DNA of 25,255 bases from a virus, in IMG/VR virus record IMGVR_UViG_3300009159_007268, positions 1-25,255 of that record; one strand, written 5' to 3'. Both the position numbers and the translations under genes were made by a program. A model generated the notes under the pieces. That model did no database searches, was not told where the DNA came from, and saw only the letters and a program-made list of their open reading frames with translations. This document shows positions 2,594-24,300 of this stretch, piece after piece; the stretch's first letter is position 1; each line of letters begins with the position of its first letter.

Positions 2594-3621
2594 GTTTTGC
2601 TCCATTTCGTAAGAGCCAGCTTCGCCGCCAGATCTCTATATGTATTTGACTTGATTATAAACTGAATGAACTCAGAAGTCAAGCCCGCAAGCACCATATC
2701 GTTAATATCTTTATGCTCTAGATTCTCTGGCCAGATACAAACCGAGTATCCCTGCATGATAGCTTTGTCTAGCTTCTTAATCGTATCCTTACTTCTTGGC
2801 TCGTTATCGTAAACTACCACCATGGAAGATTTGGCTTGGCTGTCAAAAGAACCCACAGCAGAAACAAGATCACCACCAGCAGTAGCAATACTATTAGGGA
2901 TAAACATAGAATCAATCGGACCCTCCAACACATATACAGTCTTATCAAAGTTAGCTGTATCTAATCCATAGACCTTCGGAACAGCATCGTTCAAAACGAT
3001 CGTGATATATTTAACCTTAGACGGTCCAAGTGCCCTACCCTGATACGCATGCATATTCTTATCTTTATCAAAGAAAGGAATAAGAAGCCTCGTCTCGTCA
3101 TGGATCAAAGATTCTGCTTCGAACTTGTTAGGAACCAAGTTGTTGGTAAACTGTTTGAAGTTAGGACAGCTGAACAGCTTCGCATGATAGGGATTAGGTA
3201 TCTTTCTAGCATCAACGAACTTCTTCACCCTATGATCGGGCGATAGCTGACTGACCTTCTTCAGCCCCTTGAGAGGACCACTCTTAAGGAATACTGGCTT
3301 CTTCATCTTTTCAACGAAAGACTCATAGTCAAGCTGCTCAGGAGTTTTCCTATCCTGGAGCTTCTCGAGCTGCATCTCGTTATAGATGTTCTGATCTACG
3401 CTCTTGATAAAGTTGGGCACAGACATGGTCGCATTGCAGTTATGGCAATGAAACATCATGTTACCTTGCTTCTCAAAGATATAGGCTCGTGCCTTATGCG
3501 TATGTGTTTGGGAGTCTCCGCAGATAGGGCAGCGAAAGTTGTATAGGTTCGAACCCTTACGCTTGAACTTTTCAAGGCGTCCAGAGATCAATCCAATGTA
3601 TTTGTGCTGAATCCAATCCAT
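2590..3621 (-). CDS. 61: DNA primase, T4 gp61-like
   Basis: A 343-residue primase that should synthesise RNA primers for the lagging strand together with the gp41-type helicase encoded at 21504-22916. The N-terminus carries a zinc-ribbon with CPIC (C31, C34) and CHNC (C59, C62), as in DnaG/gp61 primases. A TOPRIM-type catalytic core follows: VLEGPIDSMF holds the acidic residues E232 and D236, and VVVYDNEP holds D271. The length matches T4 gp61 (about 340 residues). The start is an ATG with AAGGAAATAAGC just upstream. It is the first gene behind a strong sigma70-type promoter at 3645-3672, consistent with early expression. Unlike in T4, it is separated from the helicase gene by about 18 kb. 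Confidence 0.93.
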   Translation of the reverse strand: MDWIQHKYIGLISGRLEKFKRKGSNLYNFRCPICGDSQTHTHKARAYIFEKQGNMMFHCHNCNATMSVPNFIKSVDQNIYNEMQLEKLQDRKTPEQLDYESFVEKMKKPVFLKSGPLKGLKKVSQLSPDHRVKKFVDARKIPNPYHAKLFSCPNFKQFTNNLVPNKFEAESLIHDETRLLIPFFDKDKNMHAYQGRALGPSKVKYITIVLNDAVPKVYGLDTANFDKTVYVLEGPIDSMFIPNSIATAGGDLVSAVGSFDSQAKSSMVVVYDNEPRSKDTIKKLDKAIMQGYSVCIWPENLEHKDINDMVLAGLTSEFIQFIIKSNTYRDLAAKLALTKWSKT

Positions 3622-6644: not shown

Positions 6645-7598
6645 TTAAGCGTCTGGAAGTACAAAATCGTCTGATGCATCTGCTGTGGTAGCTGCAGTAC
6701 CATAAGCAGCACTCTGCTTGCCGAGCGAACCCATAGCAACAAGCACTTCATATTGAACACGACCAGCACGTCCACCAGTACCTTCTGTACGAAGAACCCA
6801 GCCAGCATGGGCAGCACCATCATTTTTCGCACCACCAACGGTTAAATTACCAGTTGCAGTATCGCCTCTAATTGTGTGAATTTCGCCACTAGAAGTAACA
6901 CGAGTATCAGTGATGTTAACATTTGTACCATAAGGTGTTGTCGAGATAGCAATTGTAGTAGTGTTAGCAAATGAAACATAGTAGTATGAATTACCAGTCA
7001 AAGGTGCAATTGCTGTATTGTCAGTTGGTACTGAGTAATACAATCTATCACCAACTTGCCATTTTGAGTTAGCAGTTGATACTATAATGGTATCAGTTGT
7101 GTTTGAGAAACCAACAGAATTGGCAGTAATATTGATTGCTGCAGGTGCTGCAATTGAAGCTGTTGGTGGTGTAATATAACCTGAACCACGAGTTTGAATT
7201 TTAAGCGCAGTAACTCTGCCATTTACAACTTGTGCATTAGCAACGCCAGATGTACCGCCCTGTGTAACTGTAAGAGTTACCGCAGCGTTGGCAGCATACC
7301 CAGAACCACCTGTTACAACAACACCATCAAAAAGACCACCGGAATTTACGCCCATTTCTGTTGAATCGATACCAAACACACCTATAGCGACACCTGGAAT
7401 GAAAGCCCCAACTGTGGTATTACCAAATAGATTCTTGTCTGTATTTGCACGAGTGCTATTTGTATTACCTTGGTGAGCATAATCACCACCACCTGCTTTT
7501 ACAAGAGCATAAGTACCGATTGGTGCGCCATTCGATGTTTCTACAGTAGTACTAGTTGTAACGGTAACGGATTTATCGTTTCTACCCCATTGTGACAT
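6645..7598 (-). CDS. Virion structural protein with GGSGY beta motifs
   Basis: A 317-residue protein, Gly/Thr/Val/Ala-rich and almost free of Cys and Trp. Two copies of a beta module are visible: VVTGGSGYAANAAVTLTVTQ, and the later RGSGYITPPTASIAAP. The C-terminal part (HAGWVLRTEGTGGRAGRVQY) closely resembles the ending of structural proteins in T4-like cyanophages and related marine phages, where such proteins are virion components, probably tail or head decoration. The ATG has an ideal AGGAGG ribosome site, and a TATAAATA late promoter lies 32 nt upstream. This is the first gene of the tail/adhesin sub-operon. Confidence 0.8.
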   Translation of the reverse strand: MSQWGRNDKSVTVTTSTTVETSNGAPIGTYALVKAGGGDYAHQGNTNSTRANTDKNLFGNTTVGAFIPGVAIGVFGIDSTEMGVNSGGLFDGVVVTGGSGYAANAAVTLTVTQGGTSGVANAQVVNGRVTALKIQTRGSGYITPPTASIAAPAAINITANSVGFSNTTDTIIVSTANSKWQVGDRLYYSVPTDNTAIAPLTGNSYYYVSFANTTTIAISTTPYGTNVNITDTRVTSSGEIHTIRGDTATGNLTVGGAKNDGAAHAGWVLRTEGTGGRAGRVQYEVLVAMGSLGKQSAAYGTAATTADASDDFVLPDA

Positions 7599-7629: not shown

Positions 7630-7637
7630 TATTTATA
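7630..7637 (-). promoter_or_regulatory. T4-type late promoter box TATAAATA
   Basis: An exact TATAAATA is read on the minus strand in the 39-bp gap between the 74-aa gene and the structural gene, immediately after a stop codon. The distance to the AGGAGG site and ATG (32 nt) suits initiation about 8-10 nt downstream of the box. T4-type late promoters consist of this element recognised by the gp55 sigma factor. Confidence 0.75.
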
Positions 7638-10657: not shown

Positions 10658-12844
10658 CTAGTTTTCATTATCGTATTTATGATTTAGCTTAGGTTCAAAA
10701 TCTACTAATGGATTTGGACCGCCTTCTTTTTCTTCTTTTTTCTTTTTAATAACAGACTTAACAAGACCAGCCAGTTTCTTTTCTTCATCAATAATTTTAG
10801 ACTTAATAGTAGCATTTCTAGCAAGAACTGACTTAGGATCTTTAACACCAGCCGAATCAGGTCGACCAACTAATTCTTTTGATGAATCTTTACGACGAGT
10901 ATTGTCTGGCCCAAAATCTTCACTTATTCTTCTCTTATCGGCTCTATGAGTAACCCATGGGTTTGAATGATTTTTGTTCCAGTTATATTGTGCACCTAGC
11001 GAAGATAAGCCGCCGCCGAAAAAAGGAATAGGGATAGGTGGGATTTTCGTTTTTACTTTTGTTTCCGGAGCCTTTTCCGGTGTTTTTTCATTAGAAAGTT
11101 CAGGCTTAGGTTCTTCCGCTGGTTTTGGACCTGGACCAGGTTCTTCACTTGGTTTAGGTGAAGTTTTCTCATCAGGAGTTTCTGCTGGTTCCTTTGAAGG
11201 TTCCTTTGTTGGCTCTTTTGATGGTTCCTTAGAAGGTTCTTCGTTTGGAGTTTCTGCTGGTTCTTCAGATGGCGCTGGCTCTTCTTTTGGTTTTTTACCT
11301 GGCTTTTTAGTAGGTACCTGCTTAGGTAATGCAGGGTCTTGGCCTGGTTGCGGTGGCTGTGGCTGCTCTGGCACAACTTCTGGTTTAGGAGCTTCAGGTT
11401 TTACCTCTGGCGCAGGAGTTTTTGGTTTTGGAGCTGGAATTTTAGGTTTGTAAGGTATTTCAAATTCATTTAAAGCAGCGTTCCTCACTGCTAAAATAGT
11501 TTCTTTTAATGATTTTTTATTTTTAGTTGGACCTGATTCTTTTTCTGTTTTATCATCTTTTGAAACAATGCCAACAGGTGCACCAAATATATCACTTGAT
11601 GATGGCTTATTAGAAGATGTAGGAACACTATTAGGTTTAGGTTCACTTTTATTGGGATTAAAAATATCGTCTACATTTACATTTGGTTTTGAATTATCTT
11701 CATCTTTATCCGGACTTTGTGGATCCACAACTCCCTTTACCATAGTTGGTATAGCAGATTTAAATGTACCTTTAACGGCAGGAATCGCATCTAAAGCTGA
11801 AGCAGTATATTGACCTTTTTCAGCATGCCCATAAGCATCAGACCCCATACGAATTGAACCAATTCCTGGGGTTATGATAGGGATTTTTTTAATTGTACCT
11901 AATCTCATTGCAGGATGAGCATAAGAAGCTATATCAGCAACAGTTGCAGCTCCTTTTAATCTAGCTTCTGTATTTTCTGGTGTTGCATTTGACAAACTTC
12001 TTCTAACTGAAGAAGGAACCATTTTTTGTTGAGCTGGTGTTAATTTAGAAAAGTTATCTTTTTTCTGTGCTAAGTTTTTACCGATTTCATCGGAAGACGG
12101 CATATTTTTATCTGTATTAAAAAAATCTCTAACCTTTTTAGTACCAGCACTTAATGTGCTTTTTACAGCATCTGGTATTACTTCAGCAACAGGGTCTGCT
12201 ATTCTACTCAATCCACTATCTATTTTATTTCTAATAGGAGCAATATTTTCTTTACCCCATTCTTGTGCCGCACCCAACCCCTTATCAAATGCATTTTCAG
12301 TGGCTTTTGGGGCCACGACAGCTGAACCACCAATACCAGTTGCTGCACCAATACCTATAGATTTACCAGTTCCTATTTTAAGACGAGCAGCCTCAACAAG
12401 CTTACCATGCATAGTCATGCTTTTATCTTGCTTTGCTGCTCTTCTATTAGTTGAAGTTCTCATCGCAGCCTTAGTATGTCCAGGACCAATTTCAGGAGTT
12501 CCGCCCTGGAATTGATTACCTTTAAATTCAACACCAACAAGACTAATAGCTTCCATTAGCTCTTCTGTGTGCTCTTTTAGCTTCTTGGTGTCTCTTGAAT
12601 CCATATAATCGGCAACGGTATCAAGATAGTCAGCGCCTTTGGTGATCTTTGACTGTACCCAAGCCTCTAGCTCGCCCTCACCATCCATATGAGCCATAAG
12701 ACGCTTCGCCGCATCAATAGCAGTGCGAAGTTCATTACGAGCCATTTCAAACTCGAAGTCTTCATTTAATGGCTTTTTAGTATACTGTTGATCTCTAACA
12801 GCATTTCTAATAGCATGCTCGAGGCTTATGTACTTCTTTGTCAT
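10658..12844 (-). CDS. Large modular Pro/Glu-rich protein, probable head-internal or core protein
   Basis: A 728-residue protein. The N-terminal 110 residues are a compact helical domain (ELRTAIDAAKRLMAHMDGEG, then LEAWVQSKITKGADYLDTVA) of a kind common in large proteins of marine T4-like phages. Residues about 155-230 are Gly/Ala-rich and moderately hydrophobic. The middle is disordered, with a Pro/Glu/Ser/Lys tract containing tandem KEPS tetrapeptides. The C-terminus is highly basic (KKLAGLVKSVIKKKKEEKEG). The opening SLEHAIRNAVRD with PLNEDFEF is echoed internally by SLKETILAVRNAALNEFEIP, suggesting a duplicated module carrying an L-N-E step like a prohead-protease site. The start has AAAGGTTAATTAG upstream. 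No catalytic motif seen. Confidence 0.75.
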   Translation of the reverse strand: MTKKYISLEHAIRNAVRDQQYTKKPLNEDFEFEMARNELRTAIDAAKRLMAHMDGEGELEAWVQSKITKGADYLDTVADYMDSRDTKKLKEHTEELMEAISLVGVEFKGNQFQGGTPEIGPGHTKAAMRTSTNRRAAKQDKSMTMHGKLVEAARLKIGTGKSIGIGAATGIGGSAVVAPKATENAFDKGLGAAQEWGKENIAPIRNKIDSGLSRIADPVAEVIPDAVKSTLSAGTKKVRDFFNTDKNMPSSDEIGKNLAQKKDNFSKLTPAQQKMVPSSVRRSLSNATPENTEARLKGAATVADIASYAHPAMRLGTIKKIPIITPGIGSIRMGSDAYGHAEKGQYTASALDAIPAVKGTFKSAIPTMVKGVVDPQSPDKDEDNSKPNVNVDDIFNPNKSEPKPNSVPTSSNKPSSSDIFGAPVGIVSKDDKTEKESGPTKNKKSLKETILAVRNAALNEFEIPYKPKIPAPKPKTPAPEVKPEAPKPEVVPEQPQPPQPGQDPALPKQVPTKKPGKKPKEEPAPSEEPAETPNEEPSKEPSKEPTKEPSKEPAETPDEKTSPKPSEEPGPGPKPAEEPKPELSNEKTPEKAPETKVKTKIPPIPIPFFGGGLSSLGAQYNWNKNHSNPWVTHRADKRRISEDFGPDNTRRKDSSKELVGRPDSAGVKDPKSVLARNATIKSKIIDEEKKLAGLVKSVIKKKKEEKEGGPNPLVDFEPKLNHKYDNEN
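10674..10681 (-). promoter_or_regulatory. Late-promoter-like box CATAAATA
   Basis: The minus strand reads CATAAATA, one mismatch from TATAAATA, near the 3' end of the 728-aa gene and about 31 nt upstream of the ATG of the 925-aa gene. Its place and spacing suit a secondary late promoter; it is weaker evidence than the exact boxes elsewhere. Confidence 0.45.
11187..11240 (-). repeat. Tandem 12-bp repeat encoding KEPS/KEPT
   Basis: A run of 12-bp units encodes E-P-S-K-E-P-S-K-E-P-T-K-E-P-S-K-E-P, within a longer Pro/Glu-rich stretch of the 728-aa protein. The repeat keeps long frames open on the opposite strand and in an alternative frame, which produces spurious ORFs there. Confidence 0.85.
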
Positions 12845-12848
12845 CTAA

Positions 12849-13286
12849 TTAACCTTTAGTAATTGAACGTAACTGCCAACCATGTTTTTCGTGAGCATCG
12901 ATACGGTCCTGTAGGAAGTTAGCAAGACCCATCTTTTTATTCTTTTCGGCAATAGCCTGAGTTTTAGTAAGCTGTTCGATAATAGTTGCATTATCATCAG
13001 TTAACTTCTTCATCATAGACATAGCAGCAGGAATATTAACTTCATCGCTGACTAATGATAGTTCCTTGTAACGTAGGAATGAAGCAGGTGCATATGCTCC
13101 TAGTGTACGAAGGTGTTCTGCAATAGGATCAACCGCACCAAATGCTTCTTCCCATAGACCCCCAAGAAAATCATGGTACTGTGGAAAGTTTGGACCTTCT
13201 ACATTCCAATGGAAACCATGAGCCTTTAGATAAAAGGCGAAGGTTGTCGCAAGCGATACCTTCATTTCTTGAATAAGATCATCCAT
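12849..13286 (-). CDS. dps: Dps-family ferritin-like DNA-protection protein
   Basis: A 145-residue four-helix ferritin-like protein. The Dps signature is clear: HGFHWNVEGPNFPQYHDFL followed by AVDPIAEHLRTLGAYAP. Ferroxidase ligands correspond to H26 (HWN), H38 (YHDF), D53 and E57; the position of E. coli D67 is G42, so one ligand is lost. Dps proteins form 12-mers at inter-subunit sites, oxidise Fe(II) with peroxide and protect or compact DNA. This one starts directly at helix A and lacks the Lys-rich N-terminal tail used by E. coli Dps for DNA binding. It begins 1 nt after the stop of the Lys-rich protein gene, so the two are coupled. A phage-carried Dps in a late virion cassette is unusual; it may guard packaged or injected DNA (inference). 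Confidence 0.88.
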   Translation of the reverse strand: MDDLIQEMKVSLATTFAFYLKAHGFHWNVEGPNFPQYHDFLGGLWEEAFGAVDPIAEHLRTLGAYAPASFLRYKELSLVSDEVNIPAAMSMMKKLTDDNATIIEQLTKTQAIAEKNKKMGLANFLQDRIDAHEKHGWQLRSITKG

Positions 13287-13287
13287 A

Positions 13288-13905
13288 TTACTTTACTTTC
13301 TTCTTACGAACTTTTTTAACTGGTGCAACAACTACAGGAGCAACGATTGCAGCTGCAGCTTTCTTTGTTCTTTTCTTTACAACCTTAACAGGCTCTTCGA
13401 CAACTGCTTTAGTTTCCGCCAAAACAACTTCTTGAACCTTATCGAGAAGCTCTGCACTCTCCTTCGGTACATCAATAATTGCAGTCTGTACAGTTTCCTC
13501 AACCTTAGCGATAACTTCTTCTACTACTTTTTCAACTTCAGCAACTATTTCTTTTGCTACTTTAGTTTCTGTTTCAACAAAAGCTACCAATTCTTCTTTA
13601 TACTTAGCTACTGCAACTTCGACGTCTGCTTCGACTTTTTTGACTTCTTCAACAACTGGTTCAACAGTAGCTACTACTTCTTTAAGAACCTCTTCAACAG
13701 GTTTCCCAACCTTAGCAGCTTCTTCCATCACCTTGACGAAAATTTCTTCTGTCTTAGCATCGATATTAACTTTAACTTCTTCTTGAGCTTTATCAACAAC
13801 TGGTTCTTTTGCCTTTTCTTCAACTGGTGTTTCTTTCTTTGATACCATTTTATAAATTGTATAACCGACGATACCTAAAATTGCTATTCCGATAATTGTT
13901 TCCAT
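13288..13905 (-). CDS. Membrane-anchored Glu/Lys-rich coiled-coil protein with histone-like basic tail
   Basis: A 205-residue protein. It has one N-terminal membrane segment (about residues 3-19, IIGIAILGIVGYTIYKM), a long Val/Glu/Lys helix of about 150 residues with heptad-like repeats (KVEADVEVAVAKYKEELVAF), and an Ala/Pro/Lys C-terminus (KKRTKKAAAAIVAPVVVAPV, then KKVRKKKVK) resembling a histone H1 or bacterial AlgP-type tail. The ATG has AAGGAGAAATGAA upstream. It is directly coupled to the Dps gene. The basic tail could bind DNA and the N-terminus a membrane, but no enzyme motif is seen and the function is unknown. Confidence 0.75.
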   Translation of the reverse strand: METIIGIAILGIVGYTIYKMVSKKETPVEEKAKEPVVDKAQEEVKVNIDAKTEEIFVKVMEEAAKVGKPVEEVLKEVVATVEPVVEEVKKVEADVEVAVAKYKEELVAFVETETKVAKEIVAEVEKVVEEVIAKVEETVQTAIIDVPKESAELLDKVQEVVLAETKAVVEEPVKVVKKRTKKAAAAIVAPVVVAPVKKVRKKKVK

Positions 13906-13933: not shown

Positions 13934-15328
13934 TTATTTATTTTTTTGTATATTGAACTTACCGCCCTGGTTACTGTGAACCTGCTGTGATAAAGTTCCT
14001 CTTAAGTTCTGTTGAACACTACCAAACCCATCGCCATGTTTTACGGTTTTCTCAACGCCATCTGGTGTATATTTTTGTGCATGGTTTTTTCTACTTAAAA
14101 AATCAGCTGGAATTTCAGTTGCTGGATGAGGCTCACCTTTTTCAGCCATATCTATTTCAGTTTCAGCTTTTTTTGCATTAAGTCTAAGTTTGAAATGAGA
14201 AAGCTTATCCTTATCAAGCTTAACTTCTTCTTTCAATTTAGGCGAAACAGTTGGTTTACTGGGGCGTGATTGTTTCGTTTGAGGTTCTGATGATGTTCGG
14301 TCGTCAGCTTTATGGACGCTTACTTGTACTTTATTTTTCTCTGCTTCTCTATCTTTAATTAAATCAGTTAATCCCTTTTCAATTTTAGGATCTAGTTCTT
14401 CTTTAATTGTTTTCTTAATAATACCAAGTATTTTTCTCTTAGGCGGAAGTTTTTGATTTGGCGTGTCGCCAGCATATAATTGAGCAGCTGAACGTGTACC
14501 ATCCATTCTCGATAATGGATTATTCTTATCTGATGACTTAGGATCAGAACCTGTATACTCTTCGTTCTGGGAATTCTTTAAATCGGCTGCAGTTGGTGCG
14601 CCTTTTGATCCTGGCTTACGCATATGCTCGCCAGAACCATTCTTAATGCGTTCTCTCTTGGCATGAATATTATCCCATAGACCACGCTTTTCAGTAATAG
14701 TCGAAGGTCTCGCACACGAACCTGGAGCACATGGCTTAGTTCCTGGAACACGTTTGTAACCATCCCAACAGTTACATGTTTTCTCGTTAATTTGAGTTTC
14801 TTCACAGTTCCACTTACGCAATGCTAATGCCTTTCGAGTTGGCTCGCCATTTGGCTTTCTCATCGGTCCTTTAACGCCACCCATACGGGCACAAAATGAT
14901 TTACGACGATTGGCAGATTTTGAACCAGCCTTTAATTTTGATGGGGGAGTAGTTACGGGTGCCTTTAAATTGCTACCTGTTGTTCTATTATAATGATCAC
15001 GCCCCTTTTGAGTTAGACCACCAGTAGGGTTCTTATAACCCTTGCCATCTTCGGTAATTAGATCATCATCTAAGTCTGCGGCGAATCCGCCAGCAATAAA
15101 TGAGTTTACACGATCAAATGCAAACTGCTCTGGAGTTTGACCAAATGATTCGTTCCAAATATTATACCCACGATAATATACTGTTTCCAATATATTAGTT
15201 GGGATTCCTGATTTTTGGGATTTCTTGTATAGTGATAGTTTAGCTTCGTTAGTGAGAGCTATAGCAGACCCATCCAGCTGTTCTACAACTACTAGCTGAG
15301 GATCAAATTTCTTAAATCTTTTTACCAT
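13934..15328 (-). CDS. Mosaic basic protein built of short conserved phage modules
   Basis: A 464-residue protein made of recognisable short modules joined by linkers. The N-terminal part (SGIPTNILETVYYRGYNIWN, then TPEQFAFDRVNSFIAGG) resembles a small helical domain seen in many phage proteins (DUF5824-like). The next segment (GLTQKGRDHYNRTTGSNLK, then SKSANRRKSFCARMGGVKG and TRKALALRKWNC) resembles DUF6321. A cysteine-rich piece follows (CNCWDGYKRVPGTKPCAPGS), then a basic piece (GLWDNIHAKRERIKNGSGEH). The C-terminal half is charged and disordered. L-I-T-E|D before the second module looks like a prohead-protease site. The ATG has AAAGGGAAA upstream. Family names are from memory. Role unknown; the basic modules may bind nucleic acid or act inside the head. 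Confidence 0.75.
   Translation of the reverse strand: MVKRFKKFDPQLVVVEQLDGSAIALTNEAKLSLYKKSQKSGIPTNILETVYYRGYNIWNESFGQTPEQFAFDRVNSFIAGGFAADLDDDLITEDGKGYKNPTGGLTQKGRDHYNRTTGSNLKAPVTTPPSKLKAGSKSANRRKSFCARMGGVKGPMRKPNGEPTRKALALRKWNCEETQINEKTCNCWDGYKRVPGTKPCAPGSCARPSTITEKRGLWDNIHAKRERIKNGSGEHMRKPGSKGAPTAADLKNSQNEEYTGSDPKSSDKNNPLSRMDGTRSAAQLYAGDTPNQKLPPKRKILGIIKKTIKEELDPKIEKGLTDLIKDREAEKNKVQVSVHKADDRTSSEPQTKQSRPSKPTVSPKLKEEVKLDKDKLSHFKLRLNAKKAETEIDMAEKGEPHPATEIPADFLSRKNHAQKYTPDGVEKTVKHGDGFGSVQQNLRGTLSQQVHSNQGGKFNIQKNK
13935..13942 (-). promoter_or_regulatory. Weak late-promoter-like box AATAAATA
   Basis: The minus strand reads AATAAATA (one mismatch to TATAAATA) at the end of the 464-aa gene, 29 nt upstream of the ATG of the membrane-anchored protein and ahead of its strong Shine-Dalgarno. 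It may add late transcription for that gene and dps. AT-rich context makes chance occurrence plausible. Confidence 0.35.
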
Positions 15329-15398: not shown

Positions 15399-15947
15399 TT
15401 ATTTAGCTTTTCTGTATTCTTTCGGATTGAATGCTTTGAAACCAAGAGGTGCATGAAGTTTCACGTGGTTCATTAAATCGCCATTTTCATCGTCTTTTGC
15501 TAATCCATTTGTCTCTATATATGATGAAACTTTATCAGAAGATGCAGCTGGATTACCAGAATTAAAACCAAGACCGCCAACAGCAGCAGTTATGTTTTCC
15601 TTAATAGGTTTCTTTTTCTTTGGTCCGCTTTCCATAGGAGCGCCACGAGATGATAAGTCAGCTACGGATGCTGCGTTTCCTTCATTGGGAACGTAACCAG
15701 AGTTTTCTTTAATTGGTTTCTTAGGCTTAACGGTTGGTTGTGGCTTATCATCAGAAGTAATAGCATCAACTGCAGCACCAGCAACAGCGCCAAGAGGACC
15801 ACGAATTGCATTAGTTGCCAATCTGGCTGCGCCTTTTGCAACTCCAGCTAAATCGCCTTTATATGCAGAAGAACCCATATCGCCAAGAGTGCCAAGTGGT
15901 GTGTACTGCTTTAAAGCAGATGATATTGCTGTATCTGGGGCGCTCAT
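15399..15947 (-). CDS. Ala/Gly-rich protein with duplicated KKPIKEN motif
   Basis: A 182-residue unrecognised protein. Its first 65 residues are Ala/Gly-rich and moderately hydrophobic (YKGDLAGVAKGAARLATNAI, then GPLGAVAGAAVDAI), like membrane-active or core peptides. A charged linker follows with two copies of KKPIKEN, separated by about 36 residues, then a soluble C-terminus (LHAPLGFKAFNPKEYRKAK). I-K-E|N in both copies has the I-x-E form of T4-type prohead cleavage sites. The start overlaps the upstream gene by ATGA. It is probably a head-internal protein given its neighbours; function not assigned. Confidence 0.7.
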   Translation of the reverse strand: MSAPDTAISSALKQYTPLGTLGDMGSSAYKGDLAGVAKGAARLATNAIRGPLGAVAGAAVDAITSDDKPQPTVKPKKPIKENSGYVPNEGNAASVADLSSRGAPMESGPKKKKPIKENITAAVGGLGFNSGNPAASSDKVSSYIETNGLAKDDENGDLMNHVKLHAPLGFKAFNPKEYRKAK

Positions 15948-17122
15948 ATTTCTACGACGAGTTTCATCTTCGTCTGCATCTTCTTAATGGTTAATTTCTG
16001 CTGTTCTTTTTCTCTCTTTGCCTTATAATAATCCTGCTTCATATTTTCAATCTCTGCTTCTTTAGCAGGAGTAAAATGATCAGGAAATTTTGTTCTCATA
16101 TAATCAAGAGTTTTATCTTTCATCTTCTGGTCTTCAGCATGGTCATTATCTATTAACTGAGAACCTGGTTCGTAGATAGTTCTAACATATCTATCAGCAA
16201 CTCTGCTCTGTTGTTCTGGATTTAAATGTTTCTTCATACTATCAAGAACGCCATGATATGAACCAAAGGTTTTCATATCTTCAGGTTCTGGTGCCTTACC
16301 AAACATCTTACCATAAATTGATGGTAGGCTTGTATCGTACTGACTTTCTTTTGGAGTTAATTCTCTATAAACTGTATCGCCATTCTCTTGAGCGATTGGA
16401 GTATGAGATGGTCTCATGCCTCTATCGACAGAAAATGAATGATCGGCGATAAACTTTCTTGTATCACCCTTTTTATTTCTAACGACACCATTTGTGCCCT
16501 GCGCTGCAGTTACTGATCTAAGTAGCAGTTTATGGAATGCGCCCTTTATACCTGTCTTAACATCTCCCCAGTCAGAGCCATGGGCAAACTGATTCCATTC
16601 ACTTGGTCGACCGTTTTCATAAGTTGCAGGTTCCATATCTATCTGTTGAACTCTACCATCATCATGACGAAATAAACCTAAGTTCTGAGTTCCTGATTTT
16701 TTACCGCCGATAAAGGTATACTTGCCATATTTTTTACCAGGCTTTAGTTGATCAGCCAACGTACCTGTATGCTCTTCAGGAATTGCAATATCAACATCAC
16801 CAACCTTTGGCTTGTGTTGAGCAAATTCTTTATGAGATATTTTTGGGTCCATAAATGCGTTTGATGACCCCATGAAAGCGGATCCATCATTTAATGCTTC
16901 ATGGTTTGGACCAAATATATGATTACCTGTTTTCTGGGCGTGTTCATCACTCATTTGACTCAAAGCATCGTGAAGATCACCCTGTCTTTCTTTTCTTGAA
17001 ACAGCCTGTGGGTGATTAGGATCCATATGCATAGGATCTGCCCCGATCATTTGACCATGAGCATCAGGTAGCTGTAAATTTCCACCTTCGGCTAAGTAAA
17101 AGTTTTTGAAATTTATTATCAT
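15944..17122 (-). CDS. Pol-beta-like nucleotidyltransferase with capsid-targeting-like N-terminus
   Basis: A 392-residue protein. MGSSNAF (residues 84-90) followed by VGDVDIAIPEE (107-117) is the helix-turn G-S and strand D-x-D pair of the DNA polymerase beta superfamily of nucleotidyltransferases. D109 and D111 would bind metal, and D162 in QQIDMEP is a good third acidic residue. Downstream, EWNQFAHGSDWGD and KGAFHKLLLRS form a conserved-looking helical lid. Such enzymes add nucleotides to RNA, DNA, proteins or small molecules; the substrate is not visible. The start MIINFKNFYLAE|G resembles the T4 capsid-targeting peptide with its cleavage after Glu. The C-terminus is a Lys/Gln-rich helix. 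ATGA overlaps link it to both neighbours. Confidence 0.75.
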   Translation of the reverse strand: MIINFKNFYLAEGGNLQLPDAHGQMIGADPMHMDPNHPQAVSRKERQGDLHDALSQMSDEHAQKTGNHIFGPNHEALNDGSAFMGSSNAFMDPKISHKEFAQHKPKVGDVDIAIPEEHTGTLADQLKPGKKYGKYTFIGGKKSGTQNLGLFRHDDGRVQQIDMEPATYENGRPSEWNQFAHGSDWGDVKTGIKGAFHKLLLRSVTAAQGTNGVVRNKKGDTRKFIADHSFSVDRGMRPSHTPIAQENGDTVYRELTPKESQYDTSLPSIYGKMFGKAPEPEDMKTFGSYHGVLDSMKKHLNPEQQSRVADRYVRTIYEPGSQLIDNDHAEDQKMKDKTLDYMRTKFPDHFTPAKEAEIENMKQDYYKAKREKEQQKLTIKKMQTKMKLVVEI

Positions 17123-18180
17123 GGAGTTCTTCTCAACTTTGCTGTAACGCCTTTGCTATCACCTTTTTGAAGTTTTACAAAAGCACCCTCTGGTTCTGAT
17201 TCAACACCGTCAACTGAATGAGAAAACTCACTATTCTTATGCAAAGGATTCATTAGAGCATTCTTTGCATTTTTAAGATGTGTTTGAAACTCTAAAGCTT
17301 TCTCAAAATGGTTTCTATTTCTCAATACTGTTTCTGCCATCGACGAGTGTTCTTTGTTCTTTTTCAACGAGTCAAGATAACTATCAACTGATGGCTCTAG
17401 ACCTTTAGAACTCATAGATTCTATATGAGCTGCAAATTTTGATCCATGTTTGCCCATCTCATCAAAAGCTTCTGGCTTAATTTTACTATAAGCCATTTCA
17501 GCTTCTCTTTTATGGTTTAGGAATTCTCTTTGATCTTCTGGCGAATAGTTTTTAGGATTGGCTTTAATTTCAGGATCTATCATATGCACGTCAGGGTGCT
17601 TATTGAACTTACTTTTTGTTTTATCGTCTAATGGCTCAAACCCTTTTCCATTGTGCATAGACTCTAAGGAGATAGCCATCTGGGCGGCTTTTAACGATTT
17701 GCCAGTTCCGCTATTCATAGGAACAGAATAGGTTCTATTGCCAGCTTCTATATTTTGCTTACCCTTGTAACCTTTAATTTGATCTTTTGTAAACATCTTA
17801 CCATCATACATCCCAGGAGTTTCAGGAGTTATCTTATGAAGATGATCAAAAGCATGTTTCAATTTATTGATTGTGTCACCATAGCCTTTATGGTTCTTTT
17901 CGATATCATCATGAGAATAATTAGGAACATTTGGGTCTGAACCAACGAAGAAGTTACCCTTTTTATCCCTACCAAAAGAAACTGGTTCGCCATTAAATTT
18001 CATCATAGTTTTAACATTAGAAGATTTACCAAGAAAATGTCTATTCAAAGCATCTAATACGTTAGCCGAATTTAAAGCGCCATTATGGCCATCATGTAAA
18101 TGCATATGGTCAATGTCCTTAATCTTATTATCAGTTTGCGGTGTTTGTTCTTCTTTTAAGAAACTTTTAAAATTTATCAC
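17119..18180 (-). CDS. Ligase-like nucleotidyltransferase (DUF6267-like), degenerate motif I
   Basis: A 353-residue protein resembling a phage family (DUF6267, from memory) with RNA/DNA ligase-like strands. TMMKFNGEPVSFGRDKKGNF (residues 58-77) matches motif I K-x-D-G, but with Asn for Asp (K61, N63). MYDGKMFTKDQI lies where motif III would be. EPEGAFVKLQKG with TAKLRR near the C-terminus resembles motifs IV (EG-x-V) and V (K-L-x-x-R). The family fold would bind ATP and, if active, form a lysyl-AMP; the Asn change makes activity uncertain. It starts at GTG (18180) with GGAG upstream and lies 3 nt after the previous stop. The start MINFKSFLKE|E matches the capsid-targeting-like peptide of its neighbours. 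Confidence 0.65.
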   Translation of the reverse strand: MINFKSFLKEEQTPQTDNKIKDIDHMHLHDGHNGALNSANVLDALNRHFLGKSSNVKTMMKFNGEPVSFGRDKKGNFFVGSDPNVPNYSHDDIEKNHKGYGDTINKLKHAFDHLHKITPETPGMYDGKMFTKDQIKGYKGKQNIEAGNRTYSVPMNSGTGKSLKAAQMAISLESMHNGKGFEPLDDKTKSKFNKHPDVHMIDPEIKANPKNYSPEDQREFLNHKREAEMAYSKIKPEAFDEMGKHGSKFAAHIESMSSKGLEPSVDSYLDSLKKNKEHSSMAETVLRNRNHFEKALEFQTHLKNAKNALMNPLHKNSEFSHSVDGVESEPEGAFVKLQKGDSKGVTAKLRRTP

Positions 18181-18183
18181 AAT

Positions 18184-19326
18184 TTAACTCCAGGCTGGCG
18201 TATGTTGTCTTTGTTCGGCGGAAGGAGCTCTATTACCATTCGCTGGTGTAGGCTGTGGGGCTTCCGCTGCTTTTTTAATTCTTGCTTCTCTTTCTTCATC
18301 GGCGAGTTTTGCGTTTGGTCTAACTTCAGTTGGACCTATAAGAACTCTTCCACCTAAACCATGGTTATTTCTATCTTTAGCTGTTCTAAATATAACAGAA
18401 GTATCGGGGTGTACATCTGAATCGCCGCCATTTCTATTAATATACGATTTAGTAGAATTTAAATTTAATTCGCCGTTTTCGCCAGGAATCAATGAAATAT
18501 CACCACCAATTATTCTATGAACATTTGAAAGACCGTATTCACCGCCATGCTTTACCCCATACATTGATCTATGTATTAAATCTTTATCGTGTTCATCATT
18601 AGTATCTAAAGTATGCCTTATTGCCCCAGTAAATCCTGGATCAGCAGCTCTTTCTTTCCCTAATCTATCTGTTATGCTAGAAATAGCTCTTTTGACTGCA
18701 GGGTGGTTTGCAATATGTGTAGAACCTCCCCACTGTTGGTGTCTAGTTCCTTTTAAAGAAATAAAATGCGTTGGCTTTCCGTTTTCATCATGAAAATAAG
18801 CATCAGCTTTTGGTGCGCCCCTTCCATCATATCCTAATTCTTTCCACTGATCTGGCGTTACTTTTTTTATACCAGCAGCTTCTATATGATTACCATCACC
18901 GAAACGAACTCTAACAGAACCTTTACCTGTAGTTTTTTTATGTAAATCTATACCATTTTGCATCTGTGATATTTGATCGTTTTCAACTTGTTCTGGGTTT
19001 CTTGCATTTCCAATTTTAGCCAACTTTGAAGATCTTACTACTGTTGTATTTCCATTTTCATCACCAACAGTAACATGATGTACGCCATTTTTAACTTCAT
19101 GATGAACTAATTCAACTCTACTTCCTGCCGAGAATCTAACACCAGTTTTCGGATCAACATGATCAGTTGCTAATTGGTGAGTACCTGGCGCATGTTTTGA
19201 TGTTGAATCACCTGGTAAATAATCTTTAATGTATTGTTCATAGTGTCTTTGTGCATTAATGCCAGACGCAGACATAGCTTTTCTTATTTCAGCTTTTTCC
19301 GTTAAATATTCTCCAAATTTAAACAT
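18184..19326 (-). CDS. Putative PD-(D/E)xK-like nuclease with capsid-targeting-like N-terminus
   Basis: A 380-residue protein. The start MFKFGEYLTE|K is capsid-targeting-like. Residues about 66-105 (SAGSRVELVHHEVKNGVHHV onward) look like a small SH3/KOW-type beta barrel. Then APKADAYFHDENGKPTHFIS followed by LKG gives D175 and S190-L-K192, the D-x(n)-[EQS]-x-K pattern of PD-(D/E)xK enzymes in its Ser variant. An upstream acidic residue (E118) fits the fold. The C-terminal region is Gly/Asn-rich, with RRE-like basic ends. If active it would cleave DNA or RNA, perhaps host DNA or competing DNA on entry (inference). The start overlaps the HAD gene stop by 1 nt (TAATG). The nuclease call rests on one motif. 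Confidence 0.55.
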   Translation of the reverse strand: MFKFGEYLTEKAEIRKAMSASGINAQRHYEQYIKDYLPGDSTSKHAPGTHQLATDHVDPKTGVRFSAGSRVELVHHEVKNGVHHVTVGDENGNTTVVRSSKLAKIGNARNPEQVENDQISQMQNGIDLHKKTTGKGSVRVRFGDGNHIEAAGIKKVTPDQWKELGYDGRGAPKADAYFHDENGKPTHFISLKGTRHQQWGGSTHIANHPAVKRAISSITDRLGKERAADPGFTGAIRHTLDTNDEHDKDLIHRSMYGVKHGGEYGLSNVHRIIGGDISLIPGENGELNLNSTKSYINRNGGDSDVHPDTSVIFRTAKDRNNHGLGGRVLIGPTEVRPNAKLADEEREARIKKAAEAPQPTPANGNRAPSAEQRQHTPAWS

Positions 19327-19994
19327 TATTTCTTAGCCTTTTCTTTTTCTTTATCAGAAGGTTTCTCTGTTAGCGATGTGGTCGTTACCTTAACGTTACC
19401 AGTTTTCGCATCATGATCGACATGATGTGCATGAAACTCTGTTTCTGGATATTCCTTCTTTAGTTTTAAGAAACCGTGTAAATTATCCATTGAGTCATCA
19501 TACAGATGAACCTTCTTGTGTCCAGCCTTATTTAATATGTTTCTCATGACCATTGCCTTAGTATCGGCTGGTTTGCCTTCTAAGTTGCCTGCTCTATAAA
19601 CGTGAGTCTTATCAATATCGATACCATACTTTGCCATGTGATGGGCAAACTTCTTTTGATCATCAAGGTCAGATCTAGCAGTAAGGATTGCTGTCTTGCC
19701 ACCATTCTTTTGGATTGCCTTTAGTTTAGCAATCATGCGACGAATAGGCTTGGCTGACTGTGTAAATATATCAGAGCTTCTGAACTCACCAAAATCATAT
19801 CTATGACCAGGAGGAAGCTTATGGGTATTAAATTCTTGATTGGTTAGAGTTTGAACTCTGGCGCCAGATGGATCTGTAACATGAACTCTAAGCTTACTGT
19901 GATCATGGGCGAATAGTGTCTCGTCCATATCGAAGGCATGAAGACCCTCTGGCTTGGTTCTATCTTCAACGATGAATTGGCTGAATTTGATCAT
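19326..19994 (-). CDS. HAD-superfamily phosphatase with capsid-targeting-like N-terminus
   Basis: A 222-residue protein. HAD motif I is HAFDMDETLF (nucleophile D22, acid D24), motif II is AILTARSD (T105), K146 fits motif III, and the acidic pair is in VHLYDDSMDN (D166-D167). The size and motif layout resemble the 3'-phosphatase half of T4 polynucleotide kinase and other small HAD phosphatases, so a nucleic-acid or nucleotide 3'-phosphate is a reasonable substrate. The start MIKFSQFIVE|D closely matches the T4 internal-protein capsid-targeting sequence, with E at position 10. The C-terminus is Lys/Glu-rich. It is the first gene after a TATAAATA promoter (20019-20026), with ribosome site TAGGGATAGTT. 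Confidence 0.8.
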   Translation of the reverse strand: MIKFSQFIVEDRTKPEGLHAFDMDETLFAHDHSKLRVHVTDPSGARVQTLTNQEFNTHKLPPGHRYDFGEFRSSDIFTQSAKPIRRMIAKLKAIQKNGGKTAILTARSDLDDQKKFAHHMAKYGIDIDKTHVYRAGNLEGKPADTKAMVMRNILNKAGHKKVHLYDDSMDNLHGFLKLKKEYPETEFHAHHVDHDAKTGNVKVTTTSLTEKPSDKEKEKAKK

Positions 19995-20018: not shown

Positions 20019-20026
20019 TATTTATA
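20019..20026 (-). promoter_or_regulatory. T4-type late promoter box TATAAATA for the enzyme cassette
   Basis: An exact TATAAATA is read on the minus strand, 25 bp upstream of the HAD gene ATG and just downstream of the terminator at 20041-20071. It should start a late transcript covering the HAD, nuclease-like, ligase-like and nucleotidyltransferase genes and probably the head proteins beyond. Confidence 0.75.
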
Positions 20027-20040
20027 AAAGTCTACAAATG

Positions 20041-20071
20041 AAAAAAGGCGAGCCTTTTACAGCTCGCCTTT
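20041..20071 (-). terminator. Rho-independent terminator
   Basis: A perfect 10-bp stem (AAAGGCGAGC pairing with GCTCGCCTTT, 20044-20053 with 20062-20071) has an 8-nt loop. On the minus strand it ends in a TTTTTT tract before C at 20040. It ends transcription from the replication block and from the box at 20186-20193, just before the next late promoter. Confidence 0.85.
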
Positions 20072-20180: not shown

Positions 20181-20396
20181 ACTTTTATTTATATAAGACT
20201 TCATACTTTTTAAAAAGAAAGTTGGAGAAAAACCATCAAATCCTCCACCTAAATTCAAATGACGCATAAATGCACGTGCCTCAAGGAACTTATCACCAGG
20301 AAATGACTTGATTACCTGATTGGTTGTCTCCTCAAGAATATCATACATTGACTTATCCTTGCCTTCAACCAGATTATAATTCATACGACGCTTCAT
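20175..20396 (-). CDS. Hypothetical protein, 73 aa
   Basis: A small basic protein (MKRRMNYNLVEGKDKSMYDI onward) with a central helix (NQVIKSFPGDKFLEARAFMR) and an aromatic Gly-rich turn (GGGFDGFSPTFF). I do not recognise it. The start overlaps the phosphoesterase stop by ATGA, and GGAG lies about 11 nt upstream. It is the last gene of the replication block, and its 3' end contains a late-promoter box. Confidence 0.7.
   Translation of the reverse strand: MKRRMNYNLVEGKDKSMYDILEETTNQVIKSFPGDKFLEARAFMRHLNLGGGFDGFSPTFFLKSMKSYINKST
20186..20193 (-). promoter_or_regulatory. T4-type late promoter box TATAAATA ahead of the small RNA
   Basis: An exact TATAAATA is read on the minus strand, inside the 3' end of the 73-aa gene. 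Initiation 6-8 nt downstream would fall at about 20179, at the base of the predicted closing stem of the small RNA. No coding gene starts between this box and the terminator at 20041-20071. Confidence 0.65.
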
Positions 20397-21272: not shown

Positions 21273-21507
21273 CGTTGGCCTCAATTTCATCCTCGCCAGG
21301 ATGAATGGTAAGTGTTGCTTCTCTTAGTCTATGTCCTCTATCATGCCACGCCTGAATACGATAAGGACGTTCGATGTCAGGTACTTCATGTCCAAGTTTT
21401 CTATACCAAGCCTCACTAGCAGTAGGAGCAAATGTCCAGTATCCAAGCGCATATGCCGCATCGCCAGGAGGGACAATCACGAATCCTTTAATTACTTTTT
21501 CTATCAC
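21223..21507 (-). CDS. Hypothetical protein, 94 aa
   Basis: An unrecognised protein. Residues 1-70 form a compact domain with aromatic and Pro-rich turns (VIVPPGDAAYALGYWTFAPT, then RPYRIQAWHDRGHRL). The last 20 residues are Ser/Gln/Asp-rich and disordered, and this tail is the part that overlaps the next gene. Translation starts at GTG (21507), which overlaps the helicase stop as GTGA, with GGGG upstream. It is part of the helicase operon, so an accessory replication role is possible. Confidence 0.7.
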   Translation of the reverse strand: MIEKVIKGFVIVPPGDAAYALGYWTFAPTASEAWYRKLGHEVPDIERPYRIQAWHDRGHRLREATLTIHPGEDEIEANDGKSSSSSVQQATDSQ

Positions 21508-22916
21508 TTGAACCCCGCAAACTTAGCTCTATCAAACTTACTCTTTGGCTTACTACGCTCGTTATCTTCATTACCAAACTTAGTATTATCCATCACAGGT
21601 CCGTCCATCAAGTCCTCCTGAGCCGAACCCTCTACATCATATAAACGCATCTTGCTGCGATCCACCCCAACAACAAACCTAGAATTAATCCCAGGATCAT
21701 TGTATCGATTCTTAAGCTGTTTAACCACAATTTGATTGAGGTCTGCCATTTCCTCGGACTGCTTGATGAGTGCAAACATAAAATCAGCTGTGGCTGGGAG
21801 TCCAAAGGATTCCGATGTATCTTCCAATCCCACGTCGCTGTTCGAATATCCGCTTCGAGTTGTCTGAGTCGCACTGACGAGAGGAACATCGAACTCAACT
21901 GCCAACCCTCGTAGCTCTTCTGCGATTGCTTTGACAAGGGTATATGAATTGACGTTGGCTCCATGTTTAATCCTCGATGACATACAGATATTCAGGTAAT
22001 CAATATAGATAATGTCTGGTATAAAGTTTTTCTTAATTTTCAACTCATTCAGCAGATGACGAAAGTTAGCCGACCCCGCACAGGCTGTAGGATATTCCTT
22101 TACGATCAACTTACCAGTTGTCTTGCCTTTGACTCGAGCAATCTTCTTATCATATACGTCCTTTGGTAAAAGCTTAAGATCATCAAGCGATACATCAAGG
22201 AGATTAGCATCGATACGCTCGGCGATACGTTCCTCTGACATTTCAAGAGTAATATATAAAACACTCAACCCCTTAGTCAGGTTAGCCGCTGCGCAATGAC
22301 ACATGAACAGAGATTTACCAACGCCAGTACCTGCTAGAGCAATGTTGAGCGTTTTACGAGGCAACCCGCCTTGCGTGATCTTATTGAAGTAGTCGATGTC
22401 GAATGGGATGCGCTCTTCTTTCCTGCGGTAGAACTCATAGCGTGAATCCGCATCTTCAAGGAAGTCATGACCAATATGCGTGTCAAAGGATACAGCAAGT
22501 GCATCCTGAAGGATCTGTGGTATAGCGCCCTTCGTGGTTTTTCCAGAACTGTCATCAAGAATCCCGATTGACGCCATGATCGCATTATAGACTGCTTTGT
22601 CCTGACAGAATTTCTCTGTTTGGTCCAAGAGCCAATCGATTTGGGTTTCTGGGTCGTATTCAAGACCAATGATCAATTCCTTAGATTGCTTAAAAGTCTC
22701 TTCGCTGATTCCATCCTTGTTCGATAGATCAATAGCAAGAGCTTCCTTAGACGGAAACGCATTATACTTGTCTACATATTCTTTAATGAGTCGGAATACA
22801 GCTTTTTCAGTCTGCGATGCGAAATACTCCTCTTTGAGAAAGGGTATGCACTTTCTACTGTATTCTTCATTGTATACCAGATTCCCAAGAATCGCATTTT
22901 CAATCGCCAGTGCCAT
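21504..22916 (-). CDS. 41: Replicative DNA helicase, T4 gp41/DnaB-like
   Basis: About 470 residues. The N-terminal helical domain (to about 150) is followed by a RecA-type motor: Walker A GTGVGKS (about residues 196-202), the catalytic Glu in ITLEM (E225), Walker B DIIYIDYLN (D306), and a DnaB-like Q/R region (SATQTTRSGYSN and later VVGVDRSKMRLYD). This is the hexameric 5'-3' helicase of the T4-type replisome, which works with gp61 primase. The C-terminus is basic and Lys/Phe-rich. I chose the ATG at 22916 because GGGAGAACAA precedes it; the in-frame ATG at 22928 has no such site. Length and motif order match T4 gp41 (475 residues). Confidence 0.93.
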   Translation of the reverse strand: MALAIENAILGNLVYNEEYSRKCIPFLKEEYFASQTEKAVFRLIKEYVDKYNAFPSKEALAIDLSNKDGISEETFKQSKELIIGLEYDPETQIDWLLDQTEKFCQDKAVYNAIMASIGILDDSSGKTTKGAIPQILQDALAVSFDTHIGHDFLEDADSRYEFYRRKEERIPFDIDYFNKITQGGLPRKTLNIALAGTGVGKSLFMCHCAAANLTKGLSVLYITLEMSEERIAERIDANLLDVSLDDLKLLPKDVYDKKIARVKGKTTGKLIVKEYPTACAGSANFRHLLNELKIKKNFIPDIIYIDYLNICMSSRIKHGANVNSYTLVKAIAEELRGLAVEFDVPLVSATQTTRSGYSNSDVGLEDTSESFGLPATADFMFALIKQSEEMADLNQIVVKQLKNRYNDPGINSRFVVGVDRSKMRLYDVEGSAQEDLMDGPVMDNTKFGNEDNERSKPKSKFDRAKFAGFK

Positions 22917-22997
22917 TTGTTCTCCCATACGTCTTTCGCAAACTTCGCCATTCGTGGTGTGCCAACTTGTACCGAGGGTCTTAGTGGCGCTGTATAA

Positions 22998-23219
22998 TTA
23001 AGAAGCTTTGACATTCAGTATACCAAGCGTAAAATTCTCAGCTGCATCTTCTGCATACCGAAGACTCTTTCCAGGAAAAGAAATAGTATCTACAATCTTT
23101 AATCCACTCAGGTGTACGTCGTAAAACTCAACGAAATAACATTGAGTATTAGCATCGACGAAAACCATAGCTTTCTTGTAACGATCATCACTCCAAAATT
23201 CAGATAAAACCTTACTCAT
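22998..23219 (-). CDS. Small conserved-type protein between uvsX and helicase, 73 aa
   Basis: The protein begins MSKVLSEFWSDDRYKKAM and contains a beta-rich core (YFVEFYDVHLSGLKIVDTIS). The reading frame stays open 40 codons further upstream, but that part lies inside uvsX. ATG 23219 overlaps the uvsX end by 8 bp and has GGAG 7 nt upstream. In T4 the slot between uvsX and 41 is occupied by gene 40; this protein is shorter and shows no visible similarity, so it is only a positional counterpart. A spacer of about 80 bp without a clear gene follows before the helicase. Confidence 0.75.
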   Translation of the reverse strand: MSKVLSEFWSDDRYKKAMVFVDANTQCYFVEFYDVHLSGLKIVDTISFPGKSLRYAEDAAENFTLGILNVKAS

Positions 23220-24252
23220 CATCGCTCTCCATGATTGCGCCCATAGCCATCTTATACTTGTTCTCGATATACTTAGCAAAGTCAGTGTTACTGAACATAT
23301 CCATCCAGAACTTCTTGTTATCAACAATATCACCAGCACGCATCGACGGCTGACGAACCTCGCCAGTTTCCTTGTCTACGGTAGCATACCAGCCATTCTT
23401 AGGCTTAACGATATAACCGCCATCAAGTGCAACATCAAGCAAGCCAGACCAGCGATTGATACCACCTTCGAAAGAAACGGTGATTGGGATCTTCGACTTC
23501 TCCTTGACGTAACGAGACTTCTCCACATTGATGACAAAGTGGTAACCAGAAATGCCATCGGCGTCCTTCTCCTGTTGACGACCAAGGATCCAGATATTGT
23601 CAGAGCCATAGTACGAACCAGTACCGCCACCAACGATGTCCTTGGGATAAAGACCAATCTCCTTATATGTATGATTGATCACTGCCATAGGAATATCCTT
23701 GAGAGACAAGTGCGGAGTGATCATACGGAAGAGAGACTTAAGCTGCTTGGCACGAGTCATATCTGCTACGCTCTTGCCATCGAGCGCATCATCAACTTCT
23801 TTCTTTGAAGCAAGGTTACCGATAGAGTCGATAACAATCATACAATGATCATCACGAGTCAGCTGCTTCATCTGCTGCATGATATCAAACTTCAACTCTT
23901 CGACGTCTGTGATAGGTGTATGAACCACAGAATCAAAAGGAATACCGAACGTTTGAAAATAAGACTGAGGAGTACCAAACTCAGAATCATAAAACAGGAT
24001 GATACCATCAGGATACTTCTTAAGGAACGAGGAAGCTAGAAGCAGTGCGAAACCAGTTTTGAAGTGCTTTGACGGTCCAGCCAACATGGTCAAACCAGGA
24101 GTAATTCCACCATCAACAGAGCCAGAAAGAGCAACGTTGATCATAGGCACAGAGGTAGGAATCATATCTTTCTTGGTGAAGATCTTACTATCTGTAAGCG
24201 TAGCAGTCAAATCAATAGTGGAATTCTTAATCAAACGATCTTTAAGTGACAT
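23212..24252 (-). CDS. uvsX: UvsX recombinase (RecA-like)
   Basis: A 346-residue RecA/UvsX protein beginning MSLKDRLIKNS. The Walker A is of the UvsX type, AGPSKHFKTG (about residues 58-67), Walker B is MIVIDSIG (D142), and a Gly-rich DNA-binding loop region (DIVGGGTGSYYGSDNIW) follows. It forms filaments on single-stranded DNA and drives strand exchange for recombination-dependent replication and repair. The ATG at 24252 has GAAGGAAATAAT upstream; an upstream in-frame start would add 16 unlike residues. The C-terminus is acidic (MESDDE), as in RecA and UvsX. It is preceded by two sigma70-like promoters at 24301-24362 and followed by the 73-aa gene and helicase. Confidence 0.95.
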   Translation of the reverse strand: MSLKDRLIKNSTIDLTATLTDSKIFTKKDMIPTSVPMINVALSGSVDGGITPGLTMLAGPSKHFKTGFALLLASSFLKKYPDGIILFYDSEFGTPQSYFQTFGIPFDSVVHTPITDVEELKFDIMQQMKQLTRDDHCMIVIDSIGNLASKKEVDDALDGKSVADMTRAKQLKSLFRMITPHLSLKDIPMAVINHTYKEIGLYPKDIVGGGTGSYYGSDNIWILGRQQEKDADGISGYHFVINVEKSRYVKEKSKIPITVSFEGGINRWSGLLDVALDGGYIVKPKNGWYATVDKETGEVRQPSMRAGDIVDNKKFWMDMFSNTDFAKYIENKYKMAMGAIMESDDE

Positions 24253-24300
24253 ATTATTTCCTTCATGTGGGGATCTATGTATAAACCAATCTCTTAGCAT

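Follow-up and report, generated by a model that had tools for sequence, protein, structure and literature searches.

The four-gene cassette

This report concerns four consecutive genes at positions 15944-19994 (minus strand) of the virus record IMGVR_UViG_3300009159_007268, and in particular the short peptide, here called the leader, with which the four encoded proteins begin. The window, i.e. the whole stretch of DNA that was analysed, is this 25,255-base record, itself a fragment; its genes sit on the minus strand and 31 of them were counted for the leader statistics. An original prediction, made from the letters of the DNA, had interpreted the peptide as a capsid targeting sequence (CTS) as known from phage T4, shared by four enzymes that are read from one late promoter and would be packaged and delivered into the next host. 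When the window was re-read, the four open reading frames (ORFs) were found exactly where they had been described. Altogether, the analysis indicates that the leader is very probably a T4-type CTS that goes along with packaging into the phage head.

The start codons of all four genes are unambiguous, with an in-frame stop 2-12 codons upstream and no alternative start between. The successive genes are joined by a 1 nt overlap, a 3 nt gap and a 4 nt overlap, and as they overlap or abut, they form one operon. About 24-25 nt before the start codon of the first gene lies an exact copy of TATAAATA (20019..20026, minus strand), which we take to be the -10 element of a T4-type late promoter. Upstream of this element, an intrinsic terminator, GGCGAGC-loop-GCTCGCC-TTTTTT (20041..20068, minus strand), was read from the sequence and divides the cassette from the preceding genes. 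The exact TATAAATA before the first gene, behind a terminator hairpin, thus supports transcription from one late promoter. Apart from this copy, the window has exact TATAAATA sites only at 7630-7637 and 20186-20193 (minus strand), both on the coding strand; the one at 7630-7637 precedes a 317 aa gene (6645-7598).

Regarding the surroundings, the window is T4-like. The cassette region is framed by UvsX (23212-24300), a gp41-type helicase (21504-22928) and a gp61-type primase (2590-3621), named by sequence recognition and similarity to annotated cyanophage genes. In the cyanomyoviruses S-PM2 and S-8S55, the slot between gp41 and gp61 likewise houses a cluster of DUF6267 and cytidylyltransferase genes.

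The four leader-bearing proteins

All four genes and leaders described here are on the minus strand, and a slash marks the predicted cut. The first protein (222 aa, 19326..19994) starts with MIKFSQFIVE/D (residues 1-10, 19965..19994; cut motif IVE). Its assignment as a HAD-fold phosphatase is well supported, as it carries the HAD motif set (DxDxT, T/S, K, DD), and D22, D24, T26, T105, K146, D166 and D167 are invariant in 30 homologs together with E10 of the leader. The nearest PHROGs family is phrog_415, polynucleotide kinase (E 2e-7), and Pfam matches were below the cut-off. The second protein (380 aa, 18184..19326) starts with MFKFGEYLTE/K (residues 1-10, 19297..19326; cut motif LTE) and contains no known domain. 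In the family alignment, which like the others was built from viral-contig loci, E115, D175, S190-x-K192 and QQxGG are invariant. Its AlphaFold2 model is of middling confidence (pLDDT 73) and shows an alpha-beta-beta-beta-alpha-beta order. Invariant residues and model topology point to a PD-(D/E)XK-like nuclease, an assignment that stays putative because a fold search with the model matched only small SH3-like barrels and gave no significant fold match.

The third protein (353 aa, 17119..18180, GTG start) starts with MINFKSFLKE/E (residues 1-10, 18151..18180; cut motif LKE) and belongs to DUF6267 (PF19782, 3.8e-22). In the case of this protein, the model (pLDDT 81) suggests with moderate support a nucleotidyltransferase fold of the ligase type. 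The top fold matches in the PDB were ATP-dependent DNA/RNA ligases, although these matches were weak (E about 3e-3, TM about 0.2). Where KxDG is expected, the window copy reads K61-F-N63-G64 (KFNG), while more than 90% of the homologs have D63; because of this N for D, the activity of the protein is uncertain. The fourth protein (392 aa, 15944..17122) starts with a leader of 12 residues, MIINFKNFYLAE/GGN (17087..17122; cut motif LAE, predicted cut E12/G13), and its N-terminus reads MIINFKNFYLAEG. Its motifs (GS...GDxDI...D), with G85, S86, D109-x-D111 and D162 invariant in 20 sequences, support a Pol-beta-type nucleotidyltransferase.

Beyond the leader, the four proteins are unrelated as had been described, with profile-profile probabilities of at most 1%. 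The description as four enzymes is well supported for the first protein, holds by motif for the fourth and moderately for the third, and was slightly overstated for the second. A sequence search of the PDB with three of the family profiles returned nothing useful.

Two types of gene fusion were seen in relatives of the fourth gene. In a close relative (L001:8973-10436), a single protein combines the fourth protein with the tail of the next ORF of the window (15399-15947), so that this locus and the window (15944-17122/15399-15947) differ by an insertion or a frame change. In jumbo contigs (L025, L057, L082 and others), Pol-beta and DUF6267 domains are fused into proteins of about 900-2,073 aa, and these begin with another leader, MLLREL[FY]...[L/I]xE/GGN, which presumably may be nearer to the propeptide of T4 Alt.

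A shared leader on unrelated proteins

The shared peptide was confirmed on all four proteins. The first three match [FYW]xx[FYW][ILVM]xE, and their Glu is residue 10. The fourth reads F5, F8, L10 and E12, as originally noted, with one extra residue before the first aromatic residue and one between the second aromatic residue and the Leu. When this pattern was searched near the N-terminus of all 31 genes of the window, it marked the first three, and the leader was limited to the four cassette genes. The internal background of the motif in related proteins was 0.11% per window of the same width, and the probability of at least three motif-bearing genes among 31 was about 6e-6.

To describe the breadth of the leader, 4,375 distinct genes from 325 related loci, which had been fetched with the four families, were scanned. 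The leader was present at 215 N-termini as compared to 5.5 (maximum 13) in shuffles, an enrichment of about 40-fold, and in 150 of the 215 leaders the Glu stood at position 10. Because of the way in which the loci had been fetched, the four families were then removed from the scan, and the leader was still found on 87 of 4,070 genes (shuffles: 4.3, maximum 9). The carriers included cytidylyltransferases, an RNA-ligase-like protein, adenylate kinase, other Pol-beta nucleotidyltransferases, proteins of unknown fold and a Dps-like protein (MKSFTRFLNE; locus L019, 14645-15070). The leader thus recurs on dozens of unrelated phage protein families, and the possibility that it belongs only to the four families used for fetching was rejected. 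Tagged genes also occur together: adjacent tagged pairs numbered 37 where 12.8 were expected from shuffles, and three or more tagged genes in a row were present at 11 of 241 distinct loci. Two of the loci (L256 and L217) carry operons of similar functional flavour built from different families.

As for the composition of the 215 leaders, the search pattern imposed the aromatic and Glu classes, but neither the bias within these classes nor the preference at P1' nor the frequent placement of Glu at position 10. The first aromatic residue was F in 202 leaders, the second F or Y in 211, and P3 was L or I in 200; P2 was free and P1' was mostly A, S, E, Q, D or G. Different synonymous codons are used at the conserved positions, which means that selection acts on the peptide and not on the DNA; a signal at the nucleotide level was rejected on these grounds.

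A short motif of common residues could resemble itself by chance, and neighbouring genes could have duplicated their start region, in which case the similarity would reflect chance or common descent of 5' gene ends and have no targeting function. This we consider exceedingly improbable, and no result obtained here speaks for it. Chance was ruled out by the enrichment over shuffles and by the probability obtained within the window. Descent from duplicated gene starts has against it the unrelated bodies of the proteins, the dozens of families and the synonymous codon variation.

Conservation of the leader and the predicted cut

To relate the leader to the protein that follows it, the families were compared along their N-terminal regions. 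Among the 30 HAD homologs (27-93% identity), in which E10 does not vary, F4 is nearly invariant, and the linker after the leader varies widely in length and sequence. In the case of the second protein, the copy in L001 shares the first 11 residues without change, with 61% identity over the whole protein.

The nucleotidyltransferase family, in which the conserved body begins at GGN, was the most informative. Among 62 distinct sequences, 53 read [LIVM]xE/GGN and eight read M/GGN and have no leader; the sole exception (L041) was a mis-picked GGN with the true junction FVLE/GGN. Loss of the leader therefore falls exactly at the predicted cut, and removal of Met by the host aminopeptidase and the predicted prohead cut would bare the identical N-terminal glycine. 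We regard this junction as the strongest evidence at the sequence level for cleavage, which probably takes place after the Glu of the leader. With its unrelated bodies, its presence or absence at one and the same junction and its many families, the leader is independent of the attached protein.

These observations fit the T4 system, in which a CTS is an N-terminal peptide of 10-19 residues. In T4 IPIII, residues 4 and 7 are determinants of targeting and residues 8 and 10 of processing, and the prohead protease gp21 cleaves behind L/I-x-E (PMC9026906). In the window leaders, conservation falls on the positions mapped by mutation in T4, namely 4, 7, 8 and 10: aromatic residues stand at 4 and 7 (offset by one in the fourth protein), and [L/I]xE stands at 8-10 as IVE, LTE or LKE (LAE at 10-12 in the fourth protein). 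Among 36 records of relatives, 22 contain a protease of the gp21 family (PF03420), and some of these are contigs that also carry leader-bearing HAD genes (e.g. G003 and G010).

Several further sequences resemble the leader or its cut motif. A 121 aa protein of the window (1757-2122, minus strand) begins MMVGYKSKKFLAE/SREP and narrowly misses the leader pattern: its cut motif, LAE, is perfect, but its aromatic residues are spaced more widely. The low-complexity proteins at 15399-15947, 13934-15328, 10658-12844 and 7865-10642 (minus strand) have in common segments of the type KK(K)x(I/L)KE(N/E/T), e.g. KKKKPIKEN, which also match the [I/L]xE cut motif; these downstream proteins may be core or internal proteins. 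Another locus (L328) encodes, from about base 916, a protein of 95 aa that starts MKKFLDYLNE/EGEL; its gene is two genes upstream of a prohead protease gene.

Timing of expression

Regarding expression, the 100 nt before the gene contained TATAAATA in 19 of 41 (46%) leader-bearing HAD genes, and the element also preceded 6 of 10 leader-bearing genes of the second family. In the controls it was found upstream of 4.8% of leaderless genes, 1 of 82 UvsX genes and 0 of 113 DnaB genes. Genes of the third and fourth families showed it less often, as expected for downstream genes of an operon. The original prediction would have been contradicted by the same peptide on early proteins, and was not: the leader was absent from UvsX (0/82), DnaB (0/114) and primase (0/24), altogether 0 of 220 early replication proteins. 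By these sequence patterns, the tagged genes appear to be expressed late. In the complete Stenotrophomonas phage DLP6, a strict leader at an annotated start is present only on the DUF6267 homolog AAY80_066 (MMKFTQFLAE/S).

Tagged proteins in virions of relatives

Published mass spectrometry of virions is available for the cyanophages S-CREM2, S-SCSM1 and S-SZBM1; the detections below are as given in the virion passages of these reports, while the leaders were identified here. In the case of S-CREM2, strict leaders are present on a SAM hydrolase (MKDFDSFLEE), a kinase (MKRFDAFLTE) and a cytidylyltransferase (MKNFSSFLTE). All three were detected in virions, with 52 of 219 proteins detected in total (Fisher p 0.013). 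The relaxed pattern adds ORF13 and ORF136, with 5 of 7 proteins detected (p 0.009), and the Cas9-like ORF12, also in virions, has RFASFMAE/A at residues 18-25. In S-SCSM1, the virion-detected NMNAT starts with MKSFLQFLKE/A. When both phages were pooled, 4 of 5 strict-leader proteins were detected (p about 0.007). In S-SZBM1, the detected cytidylyltransferase (S-SZBM1_140) starts with MRFRQFIIE/A, and its leaderless DUF6267 neighbour (S-SZBM1_141) is absent from the list of detected proteins. As cyanophage DUF6267 homologs are leaderless, they cannot be used as proof of DUF6267 in virions.

The spacing of F4, F7 and L8 would also suit an amphipathic helix with a role apart from the capsid, through which the enzymes would bind one another or dock to a membrane or replication factory in the infected cell, and the clustering of tagged genes would be in line with this. 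However, a docking helix leaves unexplained the invariant Glu10, the Leu or Ile at P3 and the E/GGN junction shared with M/GGN homologs. Furthermore, tagged proteins were detected in virions and replication proteins carry no leader. We therefore consider docking to be quite improbable.

A number of observations weigh against a packaging signal. The virion detections concern tagged proteins of other families than the four of the window, and S-SCSM1 ORF30 has a perfect leader and is not flagged as a virion protein. The virions had been purified on CsCl and the authors allow for contamination, and the passages on cyanophage virions report no processed N-termini. Some homologs have no leader (cyanophage DUF6267, and the nucleotidyltransferases of X1 and phiKT1024), the Lys at P1' of the second protein is uncommon (10 of 215), and no PF03420 protease gene was found in the 25 kb window, itself a fragment.

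Overall, a T4-type CTS is strongly supported by the match to the mapped positions, the conservation independent of the protein body, the protease in relatives and the virion proteomes of relatives. The latter also strongly support packaging of tagged proteins in general, from which we infer the presence of the window's four proteins in virions. The original interpretation is thus supported in part, strongly for the identity as a CTS and also for the late promoter, with the reservation made above concerning four enzymes.

Other features of the window

Outside the cassette, a radical SAM protein adjoins a family-7 glycosyltransferase (50-1779, minus strand); in Campylobacter phage CP220 (L002), the homolog likewise has radical SAM and sugar-transferase genes in its vicinity. 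In addition, a Dps/ferritin-like protein (12849-13286) adjoins a Lys/Ala-rich histone-like protein (13288-13905, both minus strand).

Proposed mechanism and cargo

The following mechanism is proposed. Late in infection, the four proteins would be made from one operon. The amphipathic leader, with its aromatic residues at positions 4 and 7, would bind them to the scaffold core of the prohead. A prohead protease of the gp21 family would then cut after [L/I]xE (residues 8-10) and so release the mature proteins within the head, to remain there with the packaged DNA. Finally, as with T4 Alt and IPI, they would most likely be injected along with the genome into the next host. Ejection into the host, which is suggested by this analogy, is rated lower than packaging.

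A different outcome would be that the leader targets the head and the proteins act within the prohead or virion, e.g. in core filling or in the repair or sealing of the ends of packaged DNA, with no delivery in functional form to the next cell. The cargo indeed looks suited to nucleic-acid ends, the tagged 95 aa protein of L328 is encoded beside a protease gene, and in T4 the core proteins gp22, gp67 and gp68 are cleaved and for the most part lost (PMC9026906). On the other hand, T4 proteins with such a leader survive processing and many are ejected (PMC9026906), and here the leader is a minimal tag before complete folded proteins with conserved catalytic residues. We consider action confined to the head unlikely.

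With regard to delivery by the leader, the cargo is probably a set for processing nucleic-acid ends, consisting of a phosphatase, a putative nuclease and nucleotidyltransferases of the ligase and Pol-beta types. Such a set suggests that incoming nucleic acid is repaired or defended at once, and could act in the repair of incoming DNA or RNA or in counter-defence. In a broader reading, which we hold to be about evenly balanced, T4-type phages that infect aquatic bacteria deliver a coordinated kit for nucleic-acid end-repair or counter-defence to the next host by means of a CTS that serves as a general and swappable tag, and the tag alone predicts the injected proteome. In this reading, the kit would comprise a phosphatase, nuclease, ligase, nucleotidyltransferases, adenylate kinase, NMNAT, SAM hydrolase and others.

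It has long been asked which proteins phages inject with their DNA, and to answer this has usually required cultured phages and proteomics. A tag of 10 residues that is readable from sequence would allow injected enzymes to be predicted in thousands of uncultured phages. The tag also explains the recurrence of cytidylyltransferases, SAM hydrolase and kinase in cyanophage virion proteomes, where the authors allowed for contamination.

Comparison with known systems

In a search confined to a library of open-access papers, no prior report of the leader outside well-studied model phages was found. The virion cytidylyltransferase/NMNAT, SAM hydrolase and APH kinase of S-CREM2, S-SCSM1 and S-SZBM1 are alike in that they bear the same leader and are present in virions (PMC10665884, PMC9602691, PMC9146016). 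The virion passages of these papers name no targeting signal and see such proteins as possible virion cargo or as carry-over, which two of the papers consider; the enzyme families also differ from those of the window.

Other packaged phage proteins are processed in a related manner. The head proteins of SPN3US and phiKZ lose an N-terminal propeptide to a gp21-family protease, but these propeptides are mostly above 100 aa, have other motifs and show no aromatic leader of 10 residues (PMC5694885). T4 Alt, an ADP-ribosyltransferase, is likewise an enzyme that is packaged in the head, processed at its N-terminus by gp21 and ejected (PMC9026906). However, its propeptide is of another form (the CTS is not conserved in other core proteins; PMC9958956) and its enzyme family is unrelated.

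There is also a close likeness to the CTS of T4 IPI, IPII and IPIII, which as here consists of the N-terminal 10 aa with aromatic or hydrophobic residues at 4 and 7, Ile or Leu at 8, Glu at 10 and a cut after L/I-x-E. The T4 CTS is modular and works on foreign proteins (Mullaney and Black 1996, as cited in PMC9026906 and PMC3012670). In T4, however, only a few internal proteins of small size carry it naturally, whereas in the environmental T4-type phages considered here it is found on large enzymes and on families that are unrelated and number in the dozens. What is new is the scale and the cargo: the capsid-targeting system of T4 looks to be widely extended to enzymes, as a general address label of T4-type phages.

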